Shown here in pieces: positions 8,576 to 59,686 of a stretch of 64,000 nucleotides of DNA. This DNA comes from Micromonospora sp. WMMD1082 (GTDB taxonomy: Bacteria > Actinomycetota > Actinomycetes > Mycobacteriales > Micromonosporaceae). The position numbers and the translations under genes are program-made. Numbering within the stretch: position 1 is the first letter of the stretch; the number at the start of each line of letters is the position of its first letter. The stretch lies in contig NZ_JARUBM010000002.1 of assembly GCF_029626175.1 (NCBI RefSeq), forward strand, positions 2,294,001 through 2,358,000. Reading direction: 5' to 3'. The notes beneath the pieces are model-generated. The model was not told the DNA's origin, searched no databases, and worked only from the letters and a program-made list of their open reading frames with translations.

Positions 8576-11500
8576 GTGTCCAGTGTCGTGATCCGGCGTC
8601 CGGAGCGGCGCCCCGCGCCCGAGATTCCGGTCGGTGACCTGCCGGTGCAGGCGCCCCCGGAGATTCCGGCCGGCACCGGCGCCCGCTGGCAGCAGATGCT
8701 GATGGTGCTGCCGATGCTCGGTGGCACGGTCGCGATGGCGATGATGTTCGGCCGGGGTGGCGGCGCCTACGCGTACGTGGTCGGCGGCATGTTCGGCCTC
8801 TCCTCGCTGGCGATGCTGATGACCTCCTGGGGCAGCGCCGCGGGCACCCCGAAGAAGTCCGAGATGATGGCGGCCCGCCGGGAGTACCTGCGGCACCTCA
8901 CGACCCTGCGCCGCCAGGTCCGCCAGACCGCGGCGCGGCAGCGCGCCGGCCTCTGCTACCGGCACCCGGACCCGTCGGTGCTCTGGTCGACGGTGCAGAG
9001 CCACCGGGTCTGGGAGCGACGCCCCACCGATCCGGACTTCGCGGTGGTCCGGGTCGCCGTCGGGCCGCAGACCCTCGCCACCCCGCTGATCCCGCCGGTC
9101 ACCCGTCCGTTGGAGGAGCTGGAGCCGATGACCGCCGGCGCCCTGCGCCGCTTCCTGGACGCGTACTCCGTGGTGCCCGACCTGCCGGTGGCCGTGTCGC
9201 TGCGCAGCTTCGCCCGGATCTTCGTCCGGGCCACACCGGTCGGCCCGACCGGATCACCGGCCGCGCAGGCGCTGGCCCGGGCGATGCTCACCCAGCTCGC
9301 GGTCTTCCACGCTCCGGACGAACTGCTCGTCGCGGTCTGCGCCGGCCCGGAGCGACGCGGCGTCTGGGAGTGGGTCAAGTGGCTGCCGCACGCCCAGCAT
9401 CCGACCCGCCACGACGCCCTCGGCCCGGTGCGGCTGGTCACCAGTTCCGCGGTGGAGCTGGAGCGGCTGCTCGGCGAGGCGCTGGCCAGCCGCTCCCGGT
9501 TCAGCCCGGCCGGGCCGGCGACCGACGGGCCGCACCTGGTGGTCGTGCTCGACGGGGGCGACCTCACCGGCGCCACCGAGCTGGCCGGGGACGGTGGCAT
9601 CGACGCGGTCACCCTGATCGACCTGGACACCGCGCCGCCGCGCCTGCTCGACCGGTTCGCGTTACTGCTGGAGCTGCGGGGCGGTCGGCTGCACTCGCAC
9701 TCGGCGGACGGGCCGGCCGAGGTCGGCGCGGCCGACACGCTGGAGATCACCGAGGCCGAGGCGGTGGCCCGCCGACTCGCGCCGCTGCGCCTGGCCGCCG
9801 CCCGGGGTGCCGACGCGTCACCCGGCGCCGAGCCGGGCCTGCCGGAGTTGCTCGGCATCGGCGATCCAGAGGGTTTCACCGCGGAGCAGGGTTGGCTGCC
9901 GAGATCGGCGCGGGAACGGCTGCGGGTGCCGATCGGCGTCGGCGTGGACGGTGGCGCCGTGGAGTTGGACCTGAAGGAGTCGGCGCAGGACGGCATGGGT
10001 CCGCACGGGCTGCTGATCGGTGCCACCGGCTCCGGCAAGTCCGAACTGCTCCGTACGCTGGTGCTCGGGCTGGCCACCACCCACTCCTCGGAGCAGCTCA
10101 ACTTCGTGCTGGTGGACTTCAAGGGCGGGGCCACGTTCGCCTCGTTCGACCGGCTGCCGCACACCGCCGCCGTGATCACCAATCTGGCGGACGCGTTGCC
10201 GCTGGTCGACCGAATGGTCGACGCAATCAACGGCGAGCTGGTCCGCCGGCAGGAACTGCTGCGCCGGGCCGGCAACTACGCCAGCCTGCGCGACTACGAG
10301 CGCGCGCGGGCGGCCGGCGGTCCGCTGGCCCCGCTGCCGTCGCTGCTGCTGATCTGCGACGAGTTCTCCGAACTGCTGTCGGCCAAGCCCGACTTCATCG
10401 ACCTGTTCGTCCAGATCGGCCGGCTGGGCCGGTCGCTCGGCGTGCACCTGCTGCTGGCGAGCCAGCGCCTGGAGGAGGGGCGGCTGCGCGGGCTCGACAC
10501 CCACCTGTCGTACCGGATCGGTCTGCGCACCTTCTCCGCGCTGGAGTCCCGCACGGTGCTCGGGGCACCGGACGCGCACGAACTGCCCCGCTCGCCGGGG
10601 CACGGCTTCCTTCGGTACGGCACCGAGCCGCTGCTGCGGTTCAAGGCCGCGTACGTCTCCGGGGCGGTGCAGCCGCGCGGCCCGGCGGCCGGTGCATCCG
10701 GACCGGCCGGTCCCCGCCTGCTCTCCTTCTCCACCCACTTCACCCCCGCGCCGCAGCCGCCCACCCCGCCGACCGTCCAGGACGAGAAGCCCCGGGAGAC
10801 CCTGCTGGGTCTGCTGGTCGACCGGCTGGCCGGGCAGGGGGTGCCGGCGCACCAGGTGTGGCTGCCGCCGCTGGCCGACGCCCCGGTCATGGACGAACTC
10901 GGCGGCCCGCTGACGGTCGACGACGGCCGAGGGCTGACCTTCGGCAATCCCGAGTTGCACGGCGCCTTGCAGGTGCCGGTGGCCGTGGTCGACAAACCGT
11001 ACGAGCAGCGGCGCGACCTGCTCTGGCTGACGCTGGACGGCGCGGCCGGCCACGTCGCGGTGGTCGGCGGTACGCAGAGCGGCAAGTCCACCGCACTCCG
11101 TACGCTGATCTGCGCGCTGGCACTCACCCACACCCCGGCCGAGGTGCAGGTCTACTGCCTCGACTTCGGTGGCGGCGGGCTGGCCGCGGTGCGCGACCTG
11201 CCGCACGTCGGCGGGGTCACCGGGCGGGCCGACCCGACCGGCGTACGGCGCACCGTGGGCGAGATGTCGACCGTGCTCGCCGACCGGGAACGCACCTTCG
11301 CCGAACTCGGCGTGGAGTCGATGGCCGCCTGGCGGCAGCGACGCCGCCACCAGGACACGACCGGTGAACCCCGCACCGACCCCTTCGGCGACGTGTTTCT
11401 CGTTGTCGACGGGTGGTCGACCCTGCGCGGCGAGTACGACGACCTGGAGCCGCTGATCACCGACCTGGCCACCCGGGGGCTCTCCTACGGACTGCACGTG

Positions 11501-49849: not shown

Positions 49850-49916
49850 CCGCCCGCGCGCCGGGGTACCGAGTTTGAGCCTCGGAGCGGGTGGGCTACT
49901 ATTTGTCGGCACGCCT

Positions 49917-49994
<78 letters not shown>

Positions 49995-49997
49995 GTC

Positions 49998-50030
49998 AGA
50001 GGGCACATCCCATCAATGGGTGTGCCCTCT
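49998..50030. terminator. hairpin between tRNA-Pro and int
   Basis: AGAGGGCACATCC (49998-50010) pairs with GGGTGTGCCCTCT (50018-50030). It lies between the converging tRNA and int transcripts. A closely similar hairpin stands next to the third att-like site at 59689-59720. Confidence 0.7.
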
Positions 50031-50058
50031 ACTACGTCCTGAGTGACCAACTGAGTGA

Positions 50059-51222
50059 CTACGCCTCGGCAACAGGCGCGAAGATCCGATCCATGACGGC
50101 CGCGCCTTGGAGCAGCACGGGCCGGAGTTGGTGGCGGTAGACCAGCTCCGTCACGGTCGTTCCCGAGTGCCCGCACAGGTCTGCGATGTCTTCAAGGCTC
50201 ACCCCACTGTCGGAGAGCAGGGACACGAAGCTGTGCCGCAGCTCGCGGGGTGTCCAGGCGGCCGGGTCGAGGCCGGCGAGGGTGACGACTCGGCGGAAGG
50301 CCCGGCGGACGTTAGCCGCGTCGAGGGCGGTACCGACGGTGGAAGCGAAGACCAGGTCGAGCGCATGCCAGTCCTTGCCGGCAGTCTTGCGCTCCTGGTT
50401 CTGGCGCTGGCGGTGGCGGGTCAGCGCGGAGACGCACCGGGCAGGTAATGCGAGGGTGCGCCGTGACTTGCGGGTCTTGGTGTCGCCGCCTTCTCGGTCG
50501 GAACGCCAGACGTGTAGGGCGGGCGGTAGCGGCGGATCGAGGTCGGGCTGTCCGACAAGGTCAACGTGGTCCCAGCACAGGGCGCGTAGTTCCTCGGTCC
50601 GCGCGCCGGTCAGCAGCGAGAGCACGACGTAGGCGTGCAGGCGGGTTTCCTCGGAGGCGTTGAGGACGGCCTTCGCTTGATCCAGGGTGAGGGACTTGGA
50701 GGGGCGTCCTTCTTGGCCGCGCGGCACGGTGCAGAGCGCGACGACGTTGCGCTTCACCTTGTCTCGGGCCATGGCTCGGTTGATCGAGCGGTTGAGGCAC
50801 CCGTAGAGGTCACGAAGGGTGCGGGTGCTGAGGGTGGTGGCCTTGTCAGCTAGCCAGCGGTCGACGTCCTGGGCGCGAAGCTCGCGTAGCTTCCGGGCGC
50901 CCAACGCGGGGATGATGTGGGTGCGGCACAGGATCTCGCACTTGGCCTTGGTGCGGTCTGATCGGCCGTTGAGTCCGTAGGTCAGCCAGTCGGTGACGGC
51001 TTCGGTGACGGTGTAGTGGTGCTCGGCTATGGCGAGCCCGTCTTCGTAGTCGCGGATCTTCTCCCGCAGTTTGGTGCGGGCTTCGGTCTTGGTCTTGCCG
51101 CTGCCTTTGCGCACGATGCGCTTGCCGGCCGGGGTGTATCCGACGGTGACGGTGGCGATCCAGCGTTGCCGGGACTCGTCCCAGTGCAGGCCGCCTTCCC
51201 CTCGGGCACGGCGTGTGGTCAT
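50059..51222 (-). CDS. int: tyrosine recombinase / integrase of the element
   Basis: 387 residues from ATG 51222. N-terminal arm-binding domain ([20 protein letters not shown]), SAM-like core ([20 protein letters not shown]), catalytic domain with Arg in [13 protein letters not shown] (about 207), HxxR in [15 protein letters not shown] (about 327), [15 protein letters not shown] with the nucleophilic Tyr (about 362). The gene abuts the left att repeat, the normal position for tRNA-targeting integrases, and overlaps xis by ATGA. Confidence 0.95.
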
Positions 51223-51437
51223 CGGGTACCTCCCTTCTGGGTTTCCTGTTCGAGTAGGTCGACGTAAGCGGTGATCGCGGCGGCAGGGACGAGGCGGGCA
51301 CGTCCTTGCCGGACGGTGCGGAGTCGGCCGGCGCGGATCTGTTCGTAGATCACGGACCGGGAGAGACTGAGCAGTCGCATGACCTCGGGGATGCGGTAGA
51401 GCGCCCGTGTGGGGGCGGTGAGTGCGGGTGCGGTCAA
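51219..51437 (-). CDS. xis: excisionase-like MerR/HTH_17 DNA-binding protein
   Basis: 72 residues. The motif YRIPEVMRLLSLSRSVIYEQ then IRAGRLRTVRQGRARLVPAA is the helix-turn-helix of phage/AICE excisionases. Start is an unusual TTG at 51437, supported by a strong GGAAGGAG 7 nt upstream; no ATG/GTG fits. Stop overlaps int start (ATGA). Regulates direction of recombination. Confidence 0.85.
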   Translation of the reverse strand: MTAPALTAPTRALYRIPEVMRLLSLSRSVIYEQIRAGRLRTVRQGRARLVPAAAITAYVDLLEQETQKGGTR

Positions 51438-51505
51438 TCGGTGCTCCTTCCGTGCGGGGACAGGTTGACCGTCAAGGCTGTCTTGACGGTGGATCGGTGG
51501 CCGGC

Positions 51506-53047
51506 TCAGGCGGCGGCAAGCAGGGCGTCTCGGGCGGCTTCGTGTCGTTCGCGGGCCAGGGCGGCGGCGGTGTTGGCGAGTAGGGCGTCTCCGGTGGTGC
51601 GCCAGCCGGAGCCGGCGTAGCTGAGGAGGCCGACGATCAGGGTGGTGTCGTCGTTCTGCTGGTCGGCGTATTCGTGGCCGGTTTCGGTGCGTCGCCAGAT
51701 GGTGCGGGCGTCGCGGAGGATGCGGAAGGTGACGGAGTAGCGGCGGCTTTTGGTGAGGAAGTGGCCGCCGAAGCCGAGCATGTGCGCCCACCGTCGGAGT
51801 TGCTGCCAGTCGCGGTGTTGGCCGAGGGTCCAGCAGGCGTCTACGAGCCGTTCGGCGTGAGTGCCGTGCTCGTTGGCGTACAGGTCGATGGTGTCGCCGT
51901 TGAGGCGGCGGGAGACATGCCCGGTGGTTTCGGTGCTCTTGGTGGCGTACTTGGCGAGGTAGCCGGCCACCTTCCCGTCGGTGATGTCGCCGTCGGCGTT
52001 GACCGGCCGCACATCGAGGCCCTTACCGGGGTCGCCCCAGCAGATAGGCCAGCCGCCGGGCTGGACAGCATGGGGGCGGGTGGTGAAGCCGGTCGTGGTG
52101 GCGGCGTGGGTGACGGCGGCGACCAGGTCGCCATGATCGAAGCCTGCCGGGGGTGGGACGATCGCGGCAGGGTCGTACGGGTGGACACCGTCGAGGCGGA
52201 TGATCGCGTGGTAGTGCACGACGCCCCGGCGTTGCATCTCCGCGACCTTGCCGAACGACAGCTTGACCGGCGGCACCCGACGAACCTTCCCGCTGGCGGT
52301 GACCTGCTCGACCCAGGGCAGGCCGAGCTGCCGGACGCGGGCACGGACGTGGCGAGTGAGCGCGATCGTGGTCCGGCGCCACAGTTCCGGCGCGCAGTGG
52401 TTCCACACCACCTGTGCCGGGTGGTCGTAGCAGTCCAGGCACAGCGGGGTACCGAGAGTCGGATCGTCATCGGCGTGCCGCTGGTGGCAACGCACATCCA
52501 CACCATGCGGACACAGCTCGACGTCGCGGCGAGGCCGGCACGGGACCTGCCGACCAGCGCGGTCGGTGCGCTGCGTGTGGACCGGCCCGAACGACGGTGC
52601 CGTGAGCGTGGCGAACACCGCCGGATGCCCGGTAACGGTGGCGGGGATGCCTTTGCCGCCGGCGAGGCCGGCGCGGACGAGCTGGTAGGCATCGCGCTGG
52701 TAGGTACGCGCGCACGAGGGGCACACGGCGTGACGGCGGTTGCCGCACGGTTTGTAGATCTCCCCGTCCGGCAGCTCGGCGGTGGTGACGGAGTTGAGGA
52801 GACGGCCGGTGTCCCGGTCGATGGTGGCCACCTCGCCCGCGAGGCGGATGGGGTGGGAGCAGCCCGCAGCCGCCTTCACGTGCTCCAGCCAGCCGAAGTA
52901 GTCCGGGCCGGTGGCGCGGGTAAAGGCGGACTCATCGCGGCCGACGAACCCACCCGGTGAGCCGTCGGCGGGGCGAGCGTGGGGCCGGTGCCCCGGACCA
53001 GCGTTGGTGTGCTGGTCCGGGACAACGGCGATCAGGTCAGCGGCCAC
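51506..53047 (-). CDS. RepSA-type replication initiator (rolling-circle HUH)
   Basis: 513 residues from GTG 53047, which overlaps the upstream gene by 11 bp. Cys-rich N-terminal region (CGNRRHAVCPSCARTYQRDA; CHQRH; LCLDCYDHP) is a zinc module seen in AICE Rep proteins. The HUH motif is VVHYHAIIRLDG (H-Y-H), and a candidate catalytic Tyr is in KVAGYLAKYATKSTE. Replication initiators of this kind let integrated elements replicate as circular plasmids after excision. Length is typical for pSAM2 RepSA-like proteins. Confidence 0.9.
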   Translation of the reverse strand: MAADLIAVVPDQHTNAGPGHRPHARPADGSPGGFVGRDESAFTRATGPDYFGWLEHVKAAAGCSHPIRLAGEVATIDRDTGRLLNSVTTAELPDGEIYKPCGNRRHAVCPSCARTYQRDAYQLVRAGLAGGKGIPATVTGHPAVFATLTAPSFGPVHTQRTDRAGRQVPCRPRRDVELCPHGVDVRCHQRHADDDPTLGTPLCLDCYDHPAQVVWNHCAPELWRRTTIALTRHVRARVRQLGLPWVEQVTASGKVRRVPPVKLSFGKVAEMQRRGVVHYHAIIRLDGVHPYDPAAIVPPPAGFDHGDLVAAVTHAATTTGFTTRPHAVQPGGWPICWGDPGKGLDVRPVNADGDITDGKVAGYLAKYATKSTETTGHVSRRLNGDTIDLYANEHGTHAERLVDACWTLGQHRDWQQLRRWAHMLGFGGHFLTKSRRYSVTFRILRDARTIWRRTETGHEYADQQNDDTTLIVGLLSYAGSGWRTTGDALLANTAAALARERHEAARDALLAAA

Positions 53048-53324
53048 GGGTGCGGACCGCCCTGGTGGGTAGGTGGGTGGTGGGGCCGGTGCCGAACGGG
53101 TTCGGCGTGTCGAAGATCCGGCCGAGCAGGGACGCCACATAGGTGGGCAGGTCGGCCCGGTGGTGCTCCCACAGGTAGAGGTAGCGGATCAGGACGTAGG
53201 TCTTCGGCAACTCGATCCCGTCGCGGGCGGCGAGGATCTTCATACGGCCGATGAGTTGGACGGGTTCCCAGCCCCGAGCAAGGCGGGGTTGACGCCACCG
53301 GTAGGTGGCAGGGGTGGTGGTCAT
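53037..53324 (-). CDS. conserved small protein upstream of rep, function unknown
   Basis: 95 residues from ATG 53324 (ATGA overlap with the Cys-rich gene). Reads MTTTPATYRWRQPRLARGWE, VQLIGRMKILAARDGIELPK, TYVLIRYLYLWEHHRADLPT, YVASLLGRIF, then a Thr/Arg-rich tail. Soluble, mostly helical. The tight overlaps on both sides show it belongs to the replication operon. No family recognised. Confidence 0.7.
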   Translation of the reverse strand: MTTTPATYRWRQPRLARGWEPVQLIGRMKILAARDGIELPKTYVLIRYLYLWEHHRADLPTYVASLLGRIFDTPNPFGTGPTTHLPTRAVRTRGR

Positions 53325-53872
53325 CGGGCCACCGCCGGGGTTTCCTCGGCCTCTGTGGCGAGGCAGGAGGGGCAGTCGCACTGCGGGTTGCGTGGGTCGG
53401 GGCAGCGGTTGGCCGGGCACCACTGGCAGCCGGATCGGCCGCACCAGTAGCAGTTTTCGATGGGGTCGACCTGGGTCAGGCCGCCGAAGCAGGCGCACGG
53501 GATCGAGGACGCCGGGTCCGCTCCGTAGCCGTTGCACCCGTTGCAGACTGCCCACGCGGTCTGGGCGAAGGCGGCGATACACGCCGGGGCTTGGCAGCCC
53601 TGGTGGCCGCACATGATGCAGTAGCCGGCGAAGTTGCAGCGCGGCGGTCGCAGCGTGGAGTCCGGTGCGGGGACAGTGGTCGGGTTCGTGGTGAGCACGG
53701 ACAGGCAGGCCAGCAGAGCAGCCTCATCGAGGACTGCGGGCAGGTTCAGCGCCTTCCCAGGGGCCAGCGCGTCCCGAAGCGTCGCCAACGCAGACAGCAG
53801 GCGAGCATCAGACAGCGCCGGAGTGTGGCCCGAGGCGCACAGAGCAGGATGAACGGTAGGCTGGACAGGCAT
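53321..53872 (-). CDS. Cys-rich protein, first gene of the replication operon
   Basis: 183 residues from ATG 53872 (AAAGGA 8 nt upstream), with 19 Cys, 17 of them in the last ~105 residues. They form repeated pairs: CIMCGHQGC, CNGCNGY, CACFGG, CYWCGRSGC, CQWCPANRC, CDCPSC. This suggests several treble-clef or zinc-ribbon knuckles. The N-terminal 70 residues are helical (LLSALATLRDALAPGKALNL). No named domain recognised. Its position directly after the divergent control region is unusual for AICE Rep operons. Confidence 0.75.
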   Translation of the reverse strand: MPVQPTVHPALCASGHTPALSDARLLSALATLRDALAPGKALNLPAVLDEAALLACLSVLTTNPTTVPAPDSTLRPPRCNFAGYCIMCGHQGCQAPACIAAFAQTAWAVCNGCNGYGADPASSIPCACFGGLTQVDPIENCYWCGRSGCQWCPANRCPDPRNPQCDCPSCLATEAEETPAVAR

Positions 53873-53953
53873 CGTGTTGGTCCTTTCGACGAGGGAACCG
53901 ATGCACCGGCCTCAGCGGGTGGCCGCCCGCTGGGGCTTCTTTCGTTGCCTTGA

Positions 53954-53967
53954 CTGGCTTAAGCCAG
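53954..53967. promoter_or_regulatory. operator 1 (CTGGCTTAAGCCAG)
   Basis: Perfect 14-bp palindrome. It sits just downstream of the predicted start of the leftward replication operon, where bound repressor would block transcription. Identical except for one base to the site at 54011. Confidence 0.65.
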
Positions 53968-53977
53968 TGGCTCCGTC

Positions 53978-54007
53978 AGTATGTGAGCCATCACGCCGCG
54001 TTGTCAA
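53978..54007 (-). promoter_or_regulatory. strong predicted promoter of the leftward rep-xis-int operon
   Basis: On the minus strand TTGACA (54002-54007) is followed after 18 bp by CATACT (53978-53983). Near-consensus in an otherwise GC-rich genome. The predicted start is about 53971, upstream of operator 1 and 99 nt before ATG 53872. Confidence 0.6.
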
Positions 54008-54010
54008 TAG

Positions 54011-54024
54011 CTGGCTTGAGCCAG
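54011..54024. promoter_or_regulatory. operator 2 (CTGGCTTGAGCCAG)
   Basis: Near-perfect 14-bp palindrome 57 bp from operator 1, lying 6 bp upstream of a -10-like TAGACT (54031-54036) for the GntR gene. Two matching sites in one divergent region indicate that the GntR protein controls both directions. Confidence 0.65.
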
Positions 54025-54055
54025 TTGCGGTAGACTGAGGCGGGAGGGAGACAAG

Positions 54056-54829
54056 GTGACTGACCAGGAAGAACGACGGCCGCCAAGCCGTCGCATAGCC
54101 GATGAGCTACGCGCCGCAATCGTCAATGGCGAACTCGTAGACGGCGATCAACTACCTTCGGAGCGGGACCTGGCGTCGCGGTACGCCACCGCCCGGAACA
54201 CCGCTCGGGAAGCGTTGAGCATCTTGCAAGCCGAAGGACTTGCTGTAGCGCGTCACGGCAAGGGCGTGTTCGTGCGGCGGCGCAGGCCGTTGATGCGGAT
54301 GGGGCGTAACCGCTACTCGCGTTCGGCACGCAACGAGACGGGCCTTTCACCGTTCCGTATCGAGGTTGAACGCCAGGGACGTGTTCCGCACACCGAGTGC
54401 CGTTCCGTGACCCGAACCGTCGCTCCGGCTGAGGTTGCCGAGCGGCTGAACCTGGGCCATGAGGCCGAAGTGGTCCGACGCGAAAACTGGTACTTCGCCG
54501 ACGATGAGCCGGTGCAAGTTGGAGTGACCTACATTCCCACAGCGGTCGTCGCAGACTCACCGCTGGCAACGGAGAAGAAGCTAGGCCGGGGCAGCATCTA
54601 CGCTCGATTCGAGGACCTGGGCCACGCTATTACCCGCATAAGGGAGGAAGTCTCCGCTCGGATGCCGACACCGGAGGAAGTTGCTGGACTGGTCATGCCC
54701 CCTGGTGTACCGGTGATCGAGGTTCTGCACACCAGCGTGGACGACAAAGGACAACCGTTCGAGGTGACTCGGTTTGTGATGCGCGCTGACATCAATGGCC
54801 TGGACTACGAGATGCCCGTTGAAGACTGA
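54056..54829 (+). CDS. GntR-family (HutC/UTRA) regulator of the element
   Basis: 257 residues from GTG 54056 with GGAGGGAG upstream. Winged helix RRIADELRAAIVNGELVDGD, LPSERDLASRYATARNTARE, ALSILQAEGLAVARHGKGVF; then a UTRA ligand domain (about 90-250: PFRIEVERQGRVPHTECRSV ... GVPVIEVLHTSVDDKGQPFE). KorSA/TraR-type GntR proteins control replication and excision in AICEs. Its position between divergent operators supports the same role. Lower GC and less biased codons than neighbours, consistent with transfer. Confidence 0.88.
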   Translation: MTDQEERRPPSRRIADELRAAIVNGELVDGDQLPSERDLASRYATARNTAREALSILQAEGLAVARHGKGVFVRRRRPLMRMGRNRYSRSARNETGLSPFRIEVERQGRVPHTECRSVTRTVAPAEVAERLNLGHEAEVVRRENWYFADDEPVQVGVTYIPTAVVADSPLATEKKLGRGSIYARFEDLGHAITRIREEVSARMPTPEEVAGLVMPPGVPVIEVLHTSVDDKGQPFEVTRFVMRADINGLDYEMPVED

Positions 54830-55712
54830 CCGCCCGGTGGCGGGAGGCGCTGGGCTGGTACGGCTCGCCGTACTTGCTCTCCTGTGGGGGTCTAGCTTCC
54901 TATGGATCAAGTTGGGGCTGCGTGGATTTAGTCCGACGCAATTGACGTTTGCCCGGCTGCTACTAGGTGCTTTGGTGTTGATTCCTATCGTCGTGTTTCA
55001 GGGGCAGCGGATACCACGTCAGCGGTCGGTATGGGGACACATATTCGTTGCTGCGCTGGTGGCCAACGCGATCCCCTATCTGTTGTTTGCAGTTGCAGAG
55101 CAACAGATAGGCTCAAACATCGCCGGAGTCATCAACTCTACGACACCGCTATGGACGCTGTTGCTGGGCTTCCTGGTCGGTATAGATCGCCACGTCACCG
55201 CGCCAAAAGCCGCCGGATTCGGACTAGGTTTCCTCGGCGTGGTCGTGATGTTCGGGCCGTGGGATTCGGCTGGAGAGGTGGCGAGCTGGGGCGGGCTCGC
55301 CTGCCTGGCAGCAGCCCTCTCCTACGCCATCAGCTACCTGTACATGGGGCGATACCTAACGAACAGGGGCATAAGCCCGCTCATGCTCTCCGCCAGCCAA
55401 CTAACCGCAGCAACCCTCATCCTTACCTGCGTCATGACCGCCACGGGACGCGAACACGTCGCCTGGCGGGCCGACGCCCTGATCGGCGTGCTGGTCCTCG
55501 GAATCCTCGGCACCGGAGCGGCCTACGTCCTGAACTACCGCATCATCCAGGACGACGGACCCGCCATCGCCTCCACCGTCACCTACCTACTCCCCATCGT
55601 CGCCGTCATCCTCGGATGGGCAGTCCTGCAAGAGACCGTCACCATCGCCGTCATCCTTGGCGTCGCCCTGGTGCTCGTCGGCATCGCGCTCACCCGAAGG
55701 AAGCCCGCATAG
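54795..55712 (+). CDS. EamA/DMT-family transporter (element cargo)
   Basis: About 300 residues, ten hydrophobic helices with two EamA repeats (LRLAVLALLWGSSFLWIK; VINSTTPLWTLLLGFLVG in the first, LAAALSYAISYLYMGRYLTN and VTYLLPIVAVILGWAVLQET in the second). Drug/metabolite exporters of this type move amino acids or small metabolites. The start is uncertain: ATG 54795 overlaps the GntR gene by 35 bp, TTG 54819 and GTG 54837 are alternatives. Overlap with the regulator suggests co-expression. Substrate unknown. Confidence 0.85.
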   Translation: MAWTTRCPLKTDRPVAGGAGLVRLAVLALLWGSSFLWIKLGLRGFSPTQLTFARLLLGALVLIPIVVFQGQRIPRQRSVWGHIFVAALVANAIPYLLFAVAEQQIGSNIAGVINSTTPLWTLLLGFLVGIDRHVTAPKAAGFGLGFLGVVVMFGPWDSAGEVASWGGLACLAAALSYAISYLYMGRYLTNRGISPLMLSASQLTAATLILTCVMTATGREHVAWRADALIGVLVLGILGTGAAYVLNYRIIQDDGPAIASTVTYLLPIVAVILGWAVLQETVTIAVILGVALVLVGIALTRRKPA

Positions 55713-56287
55713 CCGCAGTTCAGGCCCGAAGCCTGGCCGACTGCCGGCGGGTGGTGAGAATTTTCTGTACGTCTTCAAGGCGGCCCTTGACGGGCCGCAC
55801 GCGCCGCCGCCTGGGCGCGCGTCCGTCGCTCCGCTGGCGCTCCGACTCCGGCCACGCAACACGCCCGGCGGCTGGCGCGGAGAGCGGAAAGCCCGGTGGG
55901 CCGCCGTAGCACGACAGCAGCGTTGACCGGGTTGTGGTGGGCCGGCAGCCGGCCGGGCCGCGCAGCCACGAGCCCGCGCGGCGCAGGGAAGCGGACGCCG
56001 GCTGCGTCCGGCGAGCTAGTGATGGTCGCGGGTTGCGGTTACTGCGCCTCCGGCGGGGGCGCTCCGGCTCCAGGATGGCCGGGGCTCCGTCGGCGGGTCG
56101 CGGTCCGTGGATGGTTGCGGTAGGCCGTCCCGCCTGCCATCGACCCGGGCAAGCCGAGCAGACCACCGCCCGACCCGCCAGCGTCCGAACCTGCGTCAAG
56201 GTCCGCTTGACGTGGCGGGCCGGGCGGCGGCCCGCTCCCCAGGAGGACGGGTCGACGGCAGACGGGATGGCAGGTGGCCTTAGAGCG
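55713..56287. other. noncoding GC-rich stretch within the element, possible cis-acting locus
   Basis: 575 bp with no convincing gene; all frames have shadow-type Ala/Arg/Pro composition. It contains an AT-rich spot (GAGAATTTTCTGTAC, 55756-55770) next to a 7-bp stem (GCGGCCC-TTGAC-GGGCCGC, 55780-55798), then dense GC repeats. Replication origins and transfer loci of actinobacterial elements are often found in such gaps, but nothing here identifies which. Confidence 0.35.
55780..55798. terminator. short hairpin after the EamA gene
   Basis: GCGGCCC (55780-55786) and GGGCCGC (55792-55798) around TTGAC, 68 bp after the transporter stop. Could end the rightward transcript; no U-tract. Confidence 0.4.
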
Positions 56288-56288
56288 C

Positions 56289-56322
56289 ACTGAAGCCCCG
56301 CACCTGCGCGCGGGGCTTCAGT
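56289..56322. terminator. hairpin downstream of the alarmone-synthetase pair
   Basis: ACTGAAGCCCCG (56289-56300) pairs exactly with CGGGGCTTCAGT (56311-56322), loop 10 nt. It lies 11 bp past the 3' end of the leftward partner gene and faces the rightward transporter gene, so it probably ends both transcripts. Confidence 0.7.
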
Positions 56323-56332
56323 AGGTCTTTGA

Positions 56333-56575
56333 TCAGACGCCAGCTAGGTACCGGGACTGGGCACCTTCCTTGAAGTAGTGCCCGTGGGTTCGGTGGATCG
56401 TGTTGATTGAGTCAGACCCAACCAGAACGATCTCAAGATCTTCTCGGCCGTGAAGATCCTTCTCTGCCTTGGAGTACGCGTCGGCGGCCTCTGTGGCGTC
56501 GAGGTACACGTCTTCCCGAAGGAGCTTCTCCTGCGCGTAGTCATAGACAAGCAAGAAGTGAATCATGGCGGGCAT
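56333..56575 (-). CDS. 80-residue partner of the alarmone synthetase, candidate antitoxin
   Basis: Start ATG 56575 is chosen because AGGGAGGT lies 7 nt upstream; GTG 56584 (overlapping the upstream stop) is an alternative. Reads MPAMIHFLLVYDYAQEKLLR, EDVYLDATEAADAYSKAEKD, LHGREDLEIVLVGSDSINTI, HRTHGHYFKEGAQSRYLAGV. Predicted fold alternates strands and helices (FLLVYDY; ADAYSKAEKDL; LEIVLVGSD). No family recognised. Tight spacing behind a RelA/SpoT-type gene suggests translation coupling and a joint function, such as neutralising the synthetase. Confidence 0.65.
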   Translation of the reverse strand: MPAMIHFLLVYDYAQEKLLREDVYLDATEAADAYSKAEKDLHGREDLEIVLVGSDSINTIHRTHGHYFKEGAQSRYLAGV

Positions 56576-56580
56576 CCTGG

Positions 56581-57324
56581 TCACCTCCCTTGGAAGTAGT
56601 GTTGCACGGCGGCCCGGGCAGTGGCGAACCTTGTAGCAAACTCCGCATCAGGTTGCAAGTACCCCTCATCCATAGCAATACCCTCGGCTGCGAGCCGGAA
56701 GTACTCGACCAACTCTGGGTGACCTTGGCCGTCTTTCAGGGGCAATCGCAGGCGACCAGCAGTCCGCTCGACCGCATCAGCCCATGCCTGCTGACCCGGC
56801 GTTCGAAGCTGCACCTCGATGCGCTGTCCGTCACGCTCCACCACAAGGTGTACACCCCGGTAGCCAGTAGGCTTGGGACAATCGATGTAGTCCCTTTCGC
56901 GTTTTACGTCCCAGTTTCGCTTGATCCGCTTCATCACGCCAAGGATCTCAGCCCGCCCGCCGGGGAGGATTGCACGACATCCGCCGATGTCCTCCATCCG
57001 CGCAAGCTTGGTGTCGGGGAAGCGCACGAGCTTGTTGATGATCTGAGGCATCCGCTTAAGACGTTGGGCAACGATCACCTCTGATGACTCGCGCCGAACG
57101 AACTGGCGCACGCCGACGGCAACCTTAGTCATGGGGTACTGGAAGCTGGAGCGAAACTCCTGGATCGCGTTCCAGGCCATCAGCGTCACATCGTTCGGCT
57201 CGTCGTCGCTCAGCCACCAGTCGCGCAGGTGATCGCCGCACCGGTTGATCTCGCCCTTGCTGACGCCCGGCGCCGTTCGAGGGGCAACCACTCTTGCTTG
57301 TTGCCCGCGCTGCTGAGTAACCAC
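56581..57324 (-). CDS. RelA/SpoT-domain small alarmone synthetase (toxSAS/CapRel-like)
   Basis: 247 residues from GTG 57324. The (p)ppGpp synthetase core is recognisable: RLKRMPQIINKL, ARMEDIGGCRAIL (Asp/Arg, about 113), KRERDYIDCPKPTGYRGVHL (about 145) and IEVQLRTPGQQAWADAVERT (catalytic Glu/Arg, about 169). All catalytic positions are present. There is no hydrolase or TGS/ACT domain. An N-terminal ~70-residue extension (MVTQQRGQQARVVAPRTAPG...) is specific. Single-domain synthetases coupled to a small downstream gene on mobile elements are typically toxins (toxSAS) or abortive-infection proteins that modify tRNA or nucleotides. Confidence 0.85.
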   Translation of the reverse strand: MVTQQRGQQARVVAPRTAPGVSKGEINRCGDHLRDWWLSDDEPNDVTLMAWNAIQEFRSSFQYPMTKVAVGVRQFVRRESSEVIVAQRLKRMPQIINKLVRFPDTKLARMEDIGGCRAILPGGRAEILGVMKRIKRNWDVKRERDYIDCPKPTGYRGVHLVVERDGQRIEVQLRTPGQQAWADAVERTAGRLRLPLKDGQGHPELVEYFRLAAEGIAMDEGYLQPDAEFATRFATARAAVQHYFQGR

Positions 57325-57350
57325 TATCCCCGCCTGTGTTGTTCCGCGAG

Positions 57351-57423
57351 AGACCCGCTGCTCACTAGGCTCCGTCGACAGAGGACGAGCATGGCTTGCC
57401 GGAGCCTAGTGAGCAGCGGGTCT
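57351..57423. repeat. 24-bp perfect inverted repeat upstream of the alarmone synthetase
   Basis: Arms 57351-57374 and 57400-57423 are exact reverse complements (first arm begins AGACCCGCTGCTCACTAGGC) around a 25-nt loop. The left arm ends 27 bp from the synthetase start codon. The structure covers the whole region where a promoter and leader for that gene would lie. Confidence 0.85.
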
Positions 57424-57536
57424 GGCAAGTTTCCGACACGCCGGAATCGCTCTGTGGAGTTGGGCACTTGGCAGAAGATCGTTAGACAGGCTTGTTAGGG
57501 GCACACTGGGGGCACAAGACACCGAGAGAATCCAGT

Positions 57537-57767
57537 GTGACCTTCTGCTGCAAGATGATGCGCGACCAAGTCGAGACAGACTGTGACGAGCACCCTGACC
57601 CATTCGGCTGCCCGGATAACCTGATCTACCACGACCCGGACCCGAGCGATGAGCGCTACGGCCTGATCATCCACGACGGCGGCAGCTCGTACATCGCCAT
57701 CGGCTACTGCCCCTGGTGCGGCACCGCCCTACCGGCCGCGAACGACGAGGATGAGCCGAGTGACTGA
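57537..57767 (+). CDS. small Cys-rich protein, DUF6980-like
   Basis: 76 residues from GTG 57537 (an upstream frame to 57492 lacks support). Starts VTFCCKMMRDQVETDCDEHP, then FGCPDNLIYHDPDPSDERYG, LIIHDGGSSYIAIGYCPWCG, TALPAANDEDEPSD. The CC...C...CPDNLI...YGLIIHDGGSS...CPWCG pattern matches a widespread small family that I recall as DUF6980, found in many bacteria and frequently on mobile DNA. Function unknown; Cys pairs suggest metal binding. Last gene before the right att repeat. Confidence 0.7.
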   Translation: MTFCCKMMRDQVETDCDEHPDPFGCPDNLIYHDPDPSDERYGLIIHDGGSSYIAIGYCPWCGTALPAANDEDEPSD

Positions 57768-57874
57768 CTGGGTGACGACCGGGGCGACCGACACCGGACG
57801 CCCACGGACGATGGTGGACTGTCTCGGCAGCTCAGCCCGACTACTCGCCCAGGTCATCGAAGGCTGATAATTCC

Positions 57875-57920
57875 TTCGGGACGAAGAGGTCGTCGGTTCG
57901 AATCCGGCCACCCCGACCAG
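57875..57920 (+). repeat. right att repeat (46 bp)
   Basis: Identical copy of 49949-49994. The 5' half of the tRNA is missing here, so it is not a functional tRNA gene. It marks the right end of the element. Confidence 0.95.
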
Positions 57921-57924
57921 AGGG

Positions 57925-57967
57925 AACGCCCTGACCAGCATCGATGCTGGTCAGGGCGTTGATTTTT
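57925..57967 (+). terminator. Rho-independent terminator after the right att
   Basis: Sixteen-bp perfect stem (AACGCCCTGACCAGCA / TGCTGGTCAGGGCGTT, 57925-57940 and 57945-57960), four-base loop TCGA, followed by GATTTTT. Likely the original terminator that followed the tRNA-Pro gene before insertion of the 8-kb element, or that of the second element. Confidence 0.85.
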
Positions 57968-57969
57968 GC

Positions 57970-58515
57970 CTATGGAAAGATGCCGCGCCGGGAGGCGAAG
58001 ATCGCATCGTGCGGGTTGTCGGCGGCGTTGAGTTTGCGGGCTATCAGCATCCCGACCGCGAACCGGGGCAGGACCACCGTGCGGAAACCGGCGTCGGACT
58101 TCGTCCACTCCTCGCGGAAGAATCCCTTGCCCTTGAGGTGGACGATCGTGCCGCGGATGGTCAGGGTCGGGTGTTCGGCAGCGAGGTCCAGGTTCCCACC
58201 GCAGTGCCAGGATCTCGCCGATGCGGGCGCCGGTGGCGACCATCAGGTCGACGATGTCGGCGAGGTCTCCGGAGTGCCGAGGTGCAGGCTTGCCGGGGAT
58301 GGTCGCTGCCAGGCACGGATCGCCGAGCGGAGGGCCTGAAGGTGCTCGTCGCCAAGAGCGACGACCTTGCGGCGCGGTTTGCGTGGCCGCCCTGTGTCGC
58401 GCACGGGGTTGGCCGTCAGCGCACCCCGGCGCACGGCTAGGGCGACCATCTGGCCGAGGACAACTCTCGCGCCCTTGGCCGCGGACGGGTGTTCCTTGGC
58501 GACAACGCCCTCCAC
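57970..58515 (-). pseudogene. decayed tyrosine recombinase (second integrase)
   Basis: Three integrase fragments lie in different minus-strand frames. First, 58515-58350: VLGQMVALAVRRGALTANPV with RDTGRPRKPRR. Second, near 58250: DIVDLMVATGARIGEILALR with the catalytic Arg. Third, 58170-57973: TIRGTIVHLKGKGFFREEWT, KSDAGFRTVVLPRFAVGMLI, ending at TAG 57970. At least two frameshifts separate them; the N-terminus is cut off by a stop directly upstream of 58515, and the C-terminal HxxR and Tyr are lost. Distinct in sequence from the intact Int at 50059. Confidence 0.85.
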
Positions 58516-58538
58516 GACTCATCGGACATCGGCAGTGA

Positions 58539-59243
58539 TCAAACGACTACGGCAATCAGCAGAGAGATGAGGAGGGCGATGGTTACCGTGTTGAAGACGA
58601 ACGCGACACAACTGTTTGCGGTTACCGTCGCACGCATGGCTCGACTTGTTATGCGAACGTCCGAGCCTGAGAATGTTGTGCCGACCTGGACCGCCAGGTA
58701 CAGAAAATCGGAGAAGTTCGGGACTTCGTCAGGGCCTTCAAATTCGATCCCTCCCAGGTTGGCGTTCTCCCTTGCGTAGTGCAGCGCATACACGACCACG
58801 ATGAGCAACCAGGAGCTTGCCACCACCAGCGCTGCCAGCACGATCACCACCAGCTCCTGACGCAGCTCGCGCACAGCGGCAACCGAGATCACGGCGGCGA
58901 TAGCGAAGGCGCAGAACGTGACCGCGCCGGCCGTGCCGCCGCTGGCGACCAGCCACTCGGTCCACTGCCTGCGTCGCCGGCGGAGGCTGCTCTCAAGCAA
59001 CAGGACCCGCAGCTCTTCGCCATCCAACCGGCGCAGTGAACTCCAGGTGAGCCCGCAGTACACCAAGCAGTAGACCAACCACGCCCCGAGGTAGACCGTC
59101 GCGATGAAGGGCAGGGTCACGACGCGACCGGAAGGAGTGATCCCTGCCACGATCCCGAACAGGCAGCCCGCCACCAGCGTGGCGCCGACACTGATCCACT
59201 TGCGTGTGGAGTCCAAGAGTAGGGCTTTTCGTAGCCGCGACAC
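58539..59243 (-). CDS. DUF1345 membrane protein
   Basis: 234 residues if started at GTG 59243, which has AGGAAG 7 nt upstream and gives the family's usual length; the frame stays open to 59676, so a longer form is possible. Helices: VGATLVAGCLFGIVAGITPS, ATVYLGAWLVYCLVYCGLTW, AVTFCAFAIAAVISVAAV, LVVIVLAALVVASSWLLIVV. The C-terminal family signature is clear: DFLYLAVQVGTTFSGSDVRI, then RAMRATVTANSCVAFVFNT. Function unknown. Confidence 0.8.
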   Translation of the reverse strand: MSRLRKALLLDSTRKWISVGATLVAGCLFGIVAGITPSGRVVTLPFIATVYLGAWLVYCLVYCGLTWSSLRRLDGEELRVLLLESSLRRRRRQWTEWLVASGGTAGAVTFCAFAIAAVISVAAVRELRQELVVIVLAALVVASSWLLIVVVYALHYARENANLGGIEFEGPDEVPNFSDFLYLAVQVGTTFSGSDVRITSRAMRATVTANSCVAFVFNTVTIALLISLLIAVVV

Positions 59244-59674
59244 GGACGTTCTTCCTATCTGCTCGCCGACGTAGAGGGCAGGGGTAGTGAAGCTTACGGC
59301 GTGATCCGGAGCCGGCGGCACCGCCTGTCGATGGCCCCAACGACGAGTAGGTACATGATCTTCGGTCGATATCATCTTCCGCTCCGGGCACAGCTGACCG
59401 GCTACCAAGTAGCCGGTCACGGCTATCGGTGCGTTCGTGACGCTGGAGCACACCACCGAGGAGCACTTCGACCAGACAGCACTGGCCAGCCATTCGCAAT
59501 GCTCGCTCGGCCAACCGTCCCGACGCTGCTCGGCCAAGTCGACCAAGTCCACGTACGCGGCCGGGATGTCGTCGGCCAGCACGGCATCCGTCACGGCTGC
59601 CAGCTCGCGCACGCCACGCGCAGCAAGCTCTTGATCATAGGTACGCGCGAACGTAACTCCCTGGCATCCCGCTT

Positions 59675-59686
59675 ACCCCGACCAGG
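59675..59686 (+). repeat. third, partial att match (12 bp)
   Basis: ACCCCGACCAGG matches the last part of the tRNA-Pro att region (49984-49995). It is followed by a hairpin almost identical to that after the left att, so the match is unlikely to be chance. Confidence 0.55.

Follow-up and report, generated by a model that had tools for sequence, protein, structure and literature searches.

What is a RelA/SpoT-type synthetase doing beside an 80-residue protein in an actinomycete genome, and how did the two come to lie where they do? The question is raised by two adjacent minus-strand genes in a 64,000-nucleotide stretch of Micromonospora sp. WMMD1082 DNA (contig NZ_JARUBM010000002.1, positions 2,294,001 to 2,358,000; hereafter the window), which a preliminary description had put forward as a candidate toxSAS toxin–antitoxin or anti-phage pair on an integrative element. 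The evidence gathered here points to an unfused CapRel-type toxSAS toxin–antitoxin pair that forms part of the cargo of an integrative element inserted at a tRNA-Pro gene, a reading to which we assign a probability of roughly 0.8.

Identity of the gene pair

The synthetase (247 amino acids, GTG start) matches PF04607 (E 6.7e-15; score 55.8, cut-off 27) and covers positions 5–217 of the 349 in the PADLOC model PDC-S33 (E 8e-51), which spans CapRel; its partner covers positions 266–330 of the same model (E 3.3e-6). Such matches to different parts of PDC-S33 fit the layout of toxin plus small antitoxin recognized in the preliminary description. CapRel-SJ46 is the top match of the synthetase by sequence and, for the predicted model, by fold; among solved structures the toxin domain is closest to CapRel toxSYNTH, and in each of the three comparisons the housekeeping synthetases come below CapRel. 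The structural match list of the partner is headed by ATfaRel2, but weakly (15–16 per cent identity). These three observations, the shared PDC-S33 match, the proximity of the toxin to CapRel-SJ46 and the weak first match of the partner, are the reason for reading the pair as an unfused CapRel-type toxSAS.

The partner had looked like nothing known because scans against Pfam and NCBIfam gave no match. PDB sequence searches with the antitoxin, single or profile, found no relative either. The PDC-S33 match and a sequence alignment with the C-terminal pseudo-zinc-finger of CapRel, to which it is homologous, place it in a known antitoxin family. Homologues of both proteins were found far beyond chance (676 of the synthetase at E <= 0.001 and 169 of the partner at E <= 0.01), and the best 120 of each were listed.

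The genes are separated by 5 nt. The toxin ends in TGA, and the antitoxin then has a ribosome-binding site of its own, GGGAGGTGA, which is strong and overlaps the toxin stop codon, followed by an ATG at 56575; the spacing and signal noted earlier are thus confirmed, and the two proteins are not encoded in one reading frame, unlike fused CapRel. The toxin start codon is uncertain (GTG 57324, or GTG 57291 at codon 12). Toxin homologues shown mostly start near window-toxin residue 20, and the first 20 residues of the predicted model have a low predicted local distance difference test score (pLDDT). The N-terminal stretch of about 70 residues that the preliminary description took for an extension is not one, since the model superposes from residue 18 onto CapRel residues 12–263.

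The active site is intact, as had been supposed from the visible motifs. The ATP-clamp arginines R88 and R117 and the G-loop Tyr155 correspond to R79, R116 and Y155 of CapRel-SJ46, and they are fixed among relatives: split toxins with a residue at the site carry them in 40/40, 41/41 and 41/41 cases, respectively, and fused toxins in 72/72. The ATP-clamp arginines are therefore the same in the split and fused clades.

The neutralizing motif

In CapRel-SJ46 the YXXY helix sits between R79 and R116, and the Y352A substitution renders the protein toxic (PMC9712102); in FaRel2, two antitoxin tyrosines are described as stacking on R64 and R95 (PMC11782079). Where fused CapRel has AYPNYF, the window antitoxin has THGHYF. 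Residues V338, L339, A341, A351, Y352 and Y355 of CapRel-SJ46, their positions verified by number on its protein sequence, align with V53, L54, G56, T66, H67 and Y70 of the partner (numbered in its 83-codon frame). Given that Y352 aligns with H67, the first tyrosine of YXXY is replaced by histidine, and the tyrosine at the place of Y355 is retained. Two further candidates were discarded: a zinc site formed by H9 and H67, paired in the first alignment, since a larger set of sequences shows no conservation of H9, and a change coupled to the histidine at SJ46 R78 (Q87 in the window toxin), since 53 of 72 fused toxins also have Gln there.

The histidine is a property of a clade. A scan of genome_contigs confirmed 261 loci, of which the 80 most like the split toxins were retained, for which reason little can be read from the proportions of the locus forms. 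A separate antitoxin of the window type is present in 37 (35 assigned by script, L053 and L041 by hand, the antitoxin of L041 being visible but not linked by the stricter script), 38 are fused and 5 have a separate antitoxin with a YXXY-type motif (L057, L065, L067, L070 and L082, with L065, L067 and L070 resembling broken fused genes). The toxin frame also looks broken in L017, L021 and L029. THxxYF is present in 35 of the 37 window-type antitoxins, the exceptions being TQANYF (L021) and THSSLF (L053), and in 119 of the 120 best listed partner homologues, the remaining one having THGHYC. Fused proteins have Tyr or Phe where the first tyrosine of the motif falls: 35 and 3, respectively, among 38 genome loci, and 44 and 4 among 48 viral and phage loci, some of the viral ones near copies. 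Histidine occurs in none of these 86.

Five viral contigs carry pairs of the THxxYF clade (L128, L129, L179, L181 and L182), and a sixth, L180, has an antitoxin without a toxin match of 60 bits. A tblastn search of the phage collection with the antitoxin found nothing. Escherichia phage vB_EcoM-673R5 (L002, 39784–40883) has a relative of fused CapRel in two open reading frames, apparently a broken frame.

A variant with HXXY was not found described in a literature search or in the available passages of PMC9712102, PMC11782079, PMC11578894 and PMC13423816, though an ATcapRel is included in the alignment of Extended Data Fig. 2a of PMC9712102, where such a variant might be visible. The clade-wide histidine in the neutralizing motif is thus the new detail here, a small variation on a known kind.

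Relationships, pairing and rates

A quick maximum-likelihood tree was built from 119 toxins and 235 columns, with toxins shorter than 150 amino acids and identical rows excluded; CapRel-SJ46 is among its rows, and a PhRel reference and the locus L196 are not. The 41 toxins with a window-type antitoxin fall on one side of a branch with 98 per cent support in the Shimodaira–Hasegawa-like approximate likelihood ratio test (SH-aLRT). The fused or separate arrangement requires six changes on this tree, some of them probably broken frames, and repeated fusion or fission is also inferred in PMC9712102. Rows of the clade from outside Actinomycetota are all metagenome-assembled genomes.

Co-occurrence across genomes also favors the pairing proposed in the preliminary description. 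The antitoxin is present in 10 of 396 genomes of the phylum, the source genome counted, and a RelA/SpoT gene directly adjoins it in seven (G000, G246, G287, G230, G265, G438 and the distant G132); one has a decayed RelA/SpoT fragment (G427) and two have none (G383 and G182). Conversely, 18 genomes have a toxin match and all six with E below 1e-50 also have the antitoxin; 11 weaker ones beyond G132 lie outside this classification. Two of these loci are unusual. At L191 (G383:C2) a THxxYF antitoxin without a RelA/SpoT gene stands behind an open reading frame that by eye is a candidate ParE/RelE-type toxin. At L196 (G132:C1:3593146-3594020) the distant RelA/SpoT gene, 25 per cent identical to that of the window, adjoins a frame of 86 codons in which the motif reads THSRYF; the two may form a PhRel-type pair.

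Antitoxin identity exceeds toxin identity in 70 per cent of 595 pairs of split loci (35 loci), against 5 per cent of 2415 pairs of fused loci (70 loci). Partitioned likelihood, for which near-identical rows were dropped along with 8 loci whose toxin was short or whose motif was missing, gave an antitoxin/toxin rate of 0.68 (0.45–1.37 over 20 column bootstraps, 35 rows) for split loci and 0.995 (0.69–1.27, 69 rows) for fused ones. The direction is the same but the rate ranges overlap, so that a greater conservation of split antitoxins relative to their toxins is suggestive only.

The integrative element

Features of the pair and of the element are collected in Table 1.

Table 1. Coordinates of the gene pair and of the element around it, in window positions
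Feature	Position	Strand	Basis
Putative toxin, CapRel-type toxSAS (RelA/SpoT synthetase domain)	56581..57324	-	PF04607, PDC-S33 and CapRel-SJ46 matches
Putative antitoxin, 80 amino acids, CapRel C-terminal pseudo-zinc-finger homologue, THGHYF	56333..56575	-	PDC-S33, alignment
Antitoxin ribosome-binding site GGGAGGTGA	56581..56589	-	read from sequence
Perfect inverted repeat in divergent upstream region	57351..57423	.	sequence
Stretch with the pair, unmatched in sister element	56272..57752	.	DNA comparison with G026
DUF6980 gene, divergent from toxin, nearly all within 56272–57752	57492..57767	+	PF22400, E 3.6e-24
tRNA-Pro(CGG), integration target	49917..49993	+	sequence
Left attachment (att) core, 3' part of tRNA-Pro	49945..49994	.	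49/50 identical to right copy
Right att core	57871..57920	.	repeat comparison
Tyrosine integrase	50059..51222	-	PF00589, E 1.7e-18
RepSA replication initiator	51506..53140	-	PF20199, E 1.3e-150
GntR/UTRA regulator, in sister-unmatched stretch	54056..54829	+	Pfam, DNA comparison
EamA-type transporter, in sister-unmatched stretch	54795..55712	+	Pfam, DNA comparison

A 50-nt att repeat, one copy of which lies in the tRNA-Pro gene, encloses the integrase, RepSA, the GntR regulator, the EamA transporter, the pair and the DUF6980 gene. A sister element occupies this tRNA-Pro in the congener G026; its RepSA is 76 per cent identical and has one in-frame TGA. DNA matches between the two elements cover 49860–53336, 53466–53942, 55738–56016, 56168–56271 and 57753–57923, leaving two long unmatched stretches, 53943–55737 (GntR and EamA) and 56272–57752 (the pair). 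The att repeat at tRNA-Pro and the break in the matches around the pair, which stop at 56271 and start again at 57753, support its place as cargo of an integrative element, as first proposed. In the place of the pair, G026 has another open reading frame, up to 332 codons long and membrane-like at its N-terminus (L221, G026:C3:670400-682200, reverse-complement 10084–11079), which matches neither of the profiles used for the pair. The G+C content of 56272–57752 is 61 per cent, against 69 per cent for the left backbone and 72 per cent for the whole window. The toxin was found in none of 36 same-genus genomes at E <= 1e-10, and the left flank is present in all 36 (at least 541 of 695 nt in one match).

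The element has a tyrosine integrase, a tRNA att site and a RepSA initiator in common with the pSAM2-type actinomycete integrative and conjugative elements (AICEs), but differs from them in that no TraB/FtsK-type transfer protein is found among the genes examined: Pfam gave no FtsK/TraB translocase match among the eight element genes scanned, and by eye there is no further non-overlapping long open reading frame. It is for this reason described as AICE-like, and it is probably non-conjugative or reduced, to judge from its gene content.

The native tail of tRNA-Pro and its terminator are displaced to near 59675, and the same sequence follows the tRNA in several congeners. This implies a second island beyond the right att site (57921–59674), which holds a DUF1345 gene and what by eye is left of an integrase. 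Only the displaced tail was used in this argument; proof of an empty site from the right flank was dropped because that flank is not syntenic in congeners.

Upstream of the toxin lies a perfect inverted repeat with arms of 24 nt (57351–57374 and 57400–57423), a 25-nt spacer and an RNA fold z of -5.7. No other copy was found in the source genome or in 100 congeners (<=3 mismatches), nor an exact one in viral_contigs. A conserved upstream hairpin was considered and rejected, given that in the other split loci tested (best 15 listed) the longest inverted repeat is 11 nt, about shuffle level.

Comparison with known systems and possible mechanism

The fused CapRels (CapRel-SJ46 and CapRel-Ebc) share with the window pair the toxin fold, the active-site residues and an antitoxin homologous to their C-terminal pseudo-zinc-finger, but they are one protein with AYPNYF, where the window has two proteins and THxxYF. 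The fused form is described as predominant except in Actinobacteria (PMC9712102), the phylum of the window pair, and unfused CapRel:ATcapRel pairs are reported from Mycobacterium terramassiliense (PMC9712102) and M. tuberculosis (PMC11782079). These were compared by description, and the passages concerned do not place the Mycobacterium examples on such an element (PMC9712102, PMC11782079). FaRel2:ATfaRel2 is likewise bicistronic, and in it too a toxSAS that modifies tRNA is paired with a small pseudo-zinc-finger antitoxin encoded on its own; this antitoxin is, however, circularly permuted and has YXXY, unlike that of the window (PMC11782079). PhRel:ATphRel (gp29:gp30 of mycobacteriophage Phrann), likened here by description, is unfused, with an antitoxin related to the CapRel C-terminus, and as a phage-borne pair it inhibits superinfection (PMC9712102, PMC11559606). 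Among the matches listed from a tblastn search of the phage collection with three queries there was no Phrann record.

Pyrophosphorylation of the 3'-CCA end of tRNAs is reported for toxSAS of the CapRel, PhRel and FaRel2 types, and phage proteins act as the trigger of fused CapRel by keeping its antitoxin domain away (PMC9712102, PMC11578894, PMC11559606). By kinship, the window toxin would move pyrophosphate from ATP to the tRNA 3'-CCA end and so halt translation. Homology and position suggest that THGHYF of the antitoxin would lie between R88 and R117 and plug the ATP pocket there, its histidine standing for the first YXXY tyrosine. By analogy with fused CapRel and PhRel, the toxin would be released, and infection aborted, once some phage or host signal took the antitoxin away; because the antitoxin is free, such a trigger must displace, bind or destroy it. 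An anti-phage role, drawn from these relatives, is plausible.

Alternative explanations

There is reason to weigh the neighboring subfamily. PhRel is close to CapRel and most often unfused (PMC9712102), and the possible PhRel-type pair at L196, which comes from a genome of the same taxonomic order and has a THxxYF partner of its own, means that the motif could extend beyond CapRel. However, CapRel is the nearest solved relative of the window toxin, and the split-toxin profile gives the L196 toxin only 49 bits, compared with 117–345 for the 35 split genome loci assigned by script; it is therefore improbable that the window pair is itself a PhRel:ATphRel, of nearly the same mechanism. That the synthetase is a harmless (p)ppGpp alarmone synthetase with a small regulator is hardly credible, since both genes match a model spanning CapRel, the housekeeping synthetases are outranked throughout and an alignment relates the partner to the antitoxin domain of CapRel.

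A CapRel-type identity is compatible with a main role in keeping the element in its host rather than in phage defense. Toxin–antitoxin pairs can stabilize mobile elements, and this pair is carried by one and is absent from the sampled congeners. Against such addiction stand the persistence of the one sister element compared without the pair, the five viral contigs with pairs of the THxxYF clade, and reports of phage defense by PhRel and by fused CapRels (PMC9712102, PMC11559606); it is a possible role, though not the favored one.

Meaning of the pair

The unfused CapRel arrangement is already published (PMC9712102), so the first impression that the pair looks unlike described examples is not supported; it adds one more to them. 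What it brings with it is a link to the CapRel mechanism for a wide clade of gene pairs of the form 'RelA/SpoT plus hypothetical protein', which occurs in Actinomycetota and also, as metagenome-assembled genomes, in Chloroflexota, Dormibacterota and others, and an instance of such a pair swapped for another open reading frame in a sister element at the same tRNA. It also raises a structural question, that of a histidine in place of the tyrosine whose loss turns fused CapRel toxic.

A changed mode of sensing in the split clade is possible. It is tempting, if rather doubtful, to see in THxxY a distinct form of toxSAS control, in which a His-Tyr pair on a free antitoxin would lock the ATP pocket against unchanged toxin arginines and the antitoxin would be at least as conserved as the toxin, unlike the faster-changing sensor domain of fused CapRel. 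If so, the trigger would be a conserved phage or host cue, perhaps one enabled by the histidine such as pH or metal, and not a variable phage protein read by the antitoxin domain, or sensing would take place elsewhere.
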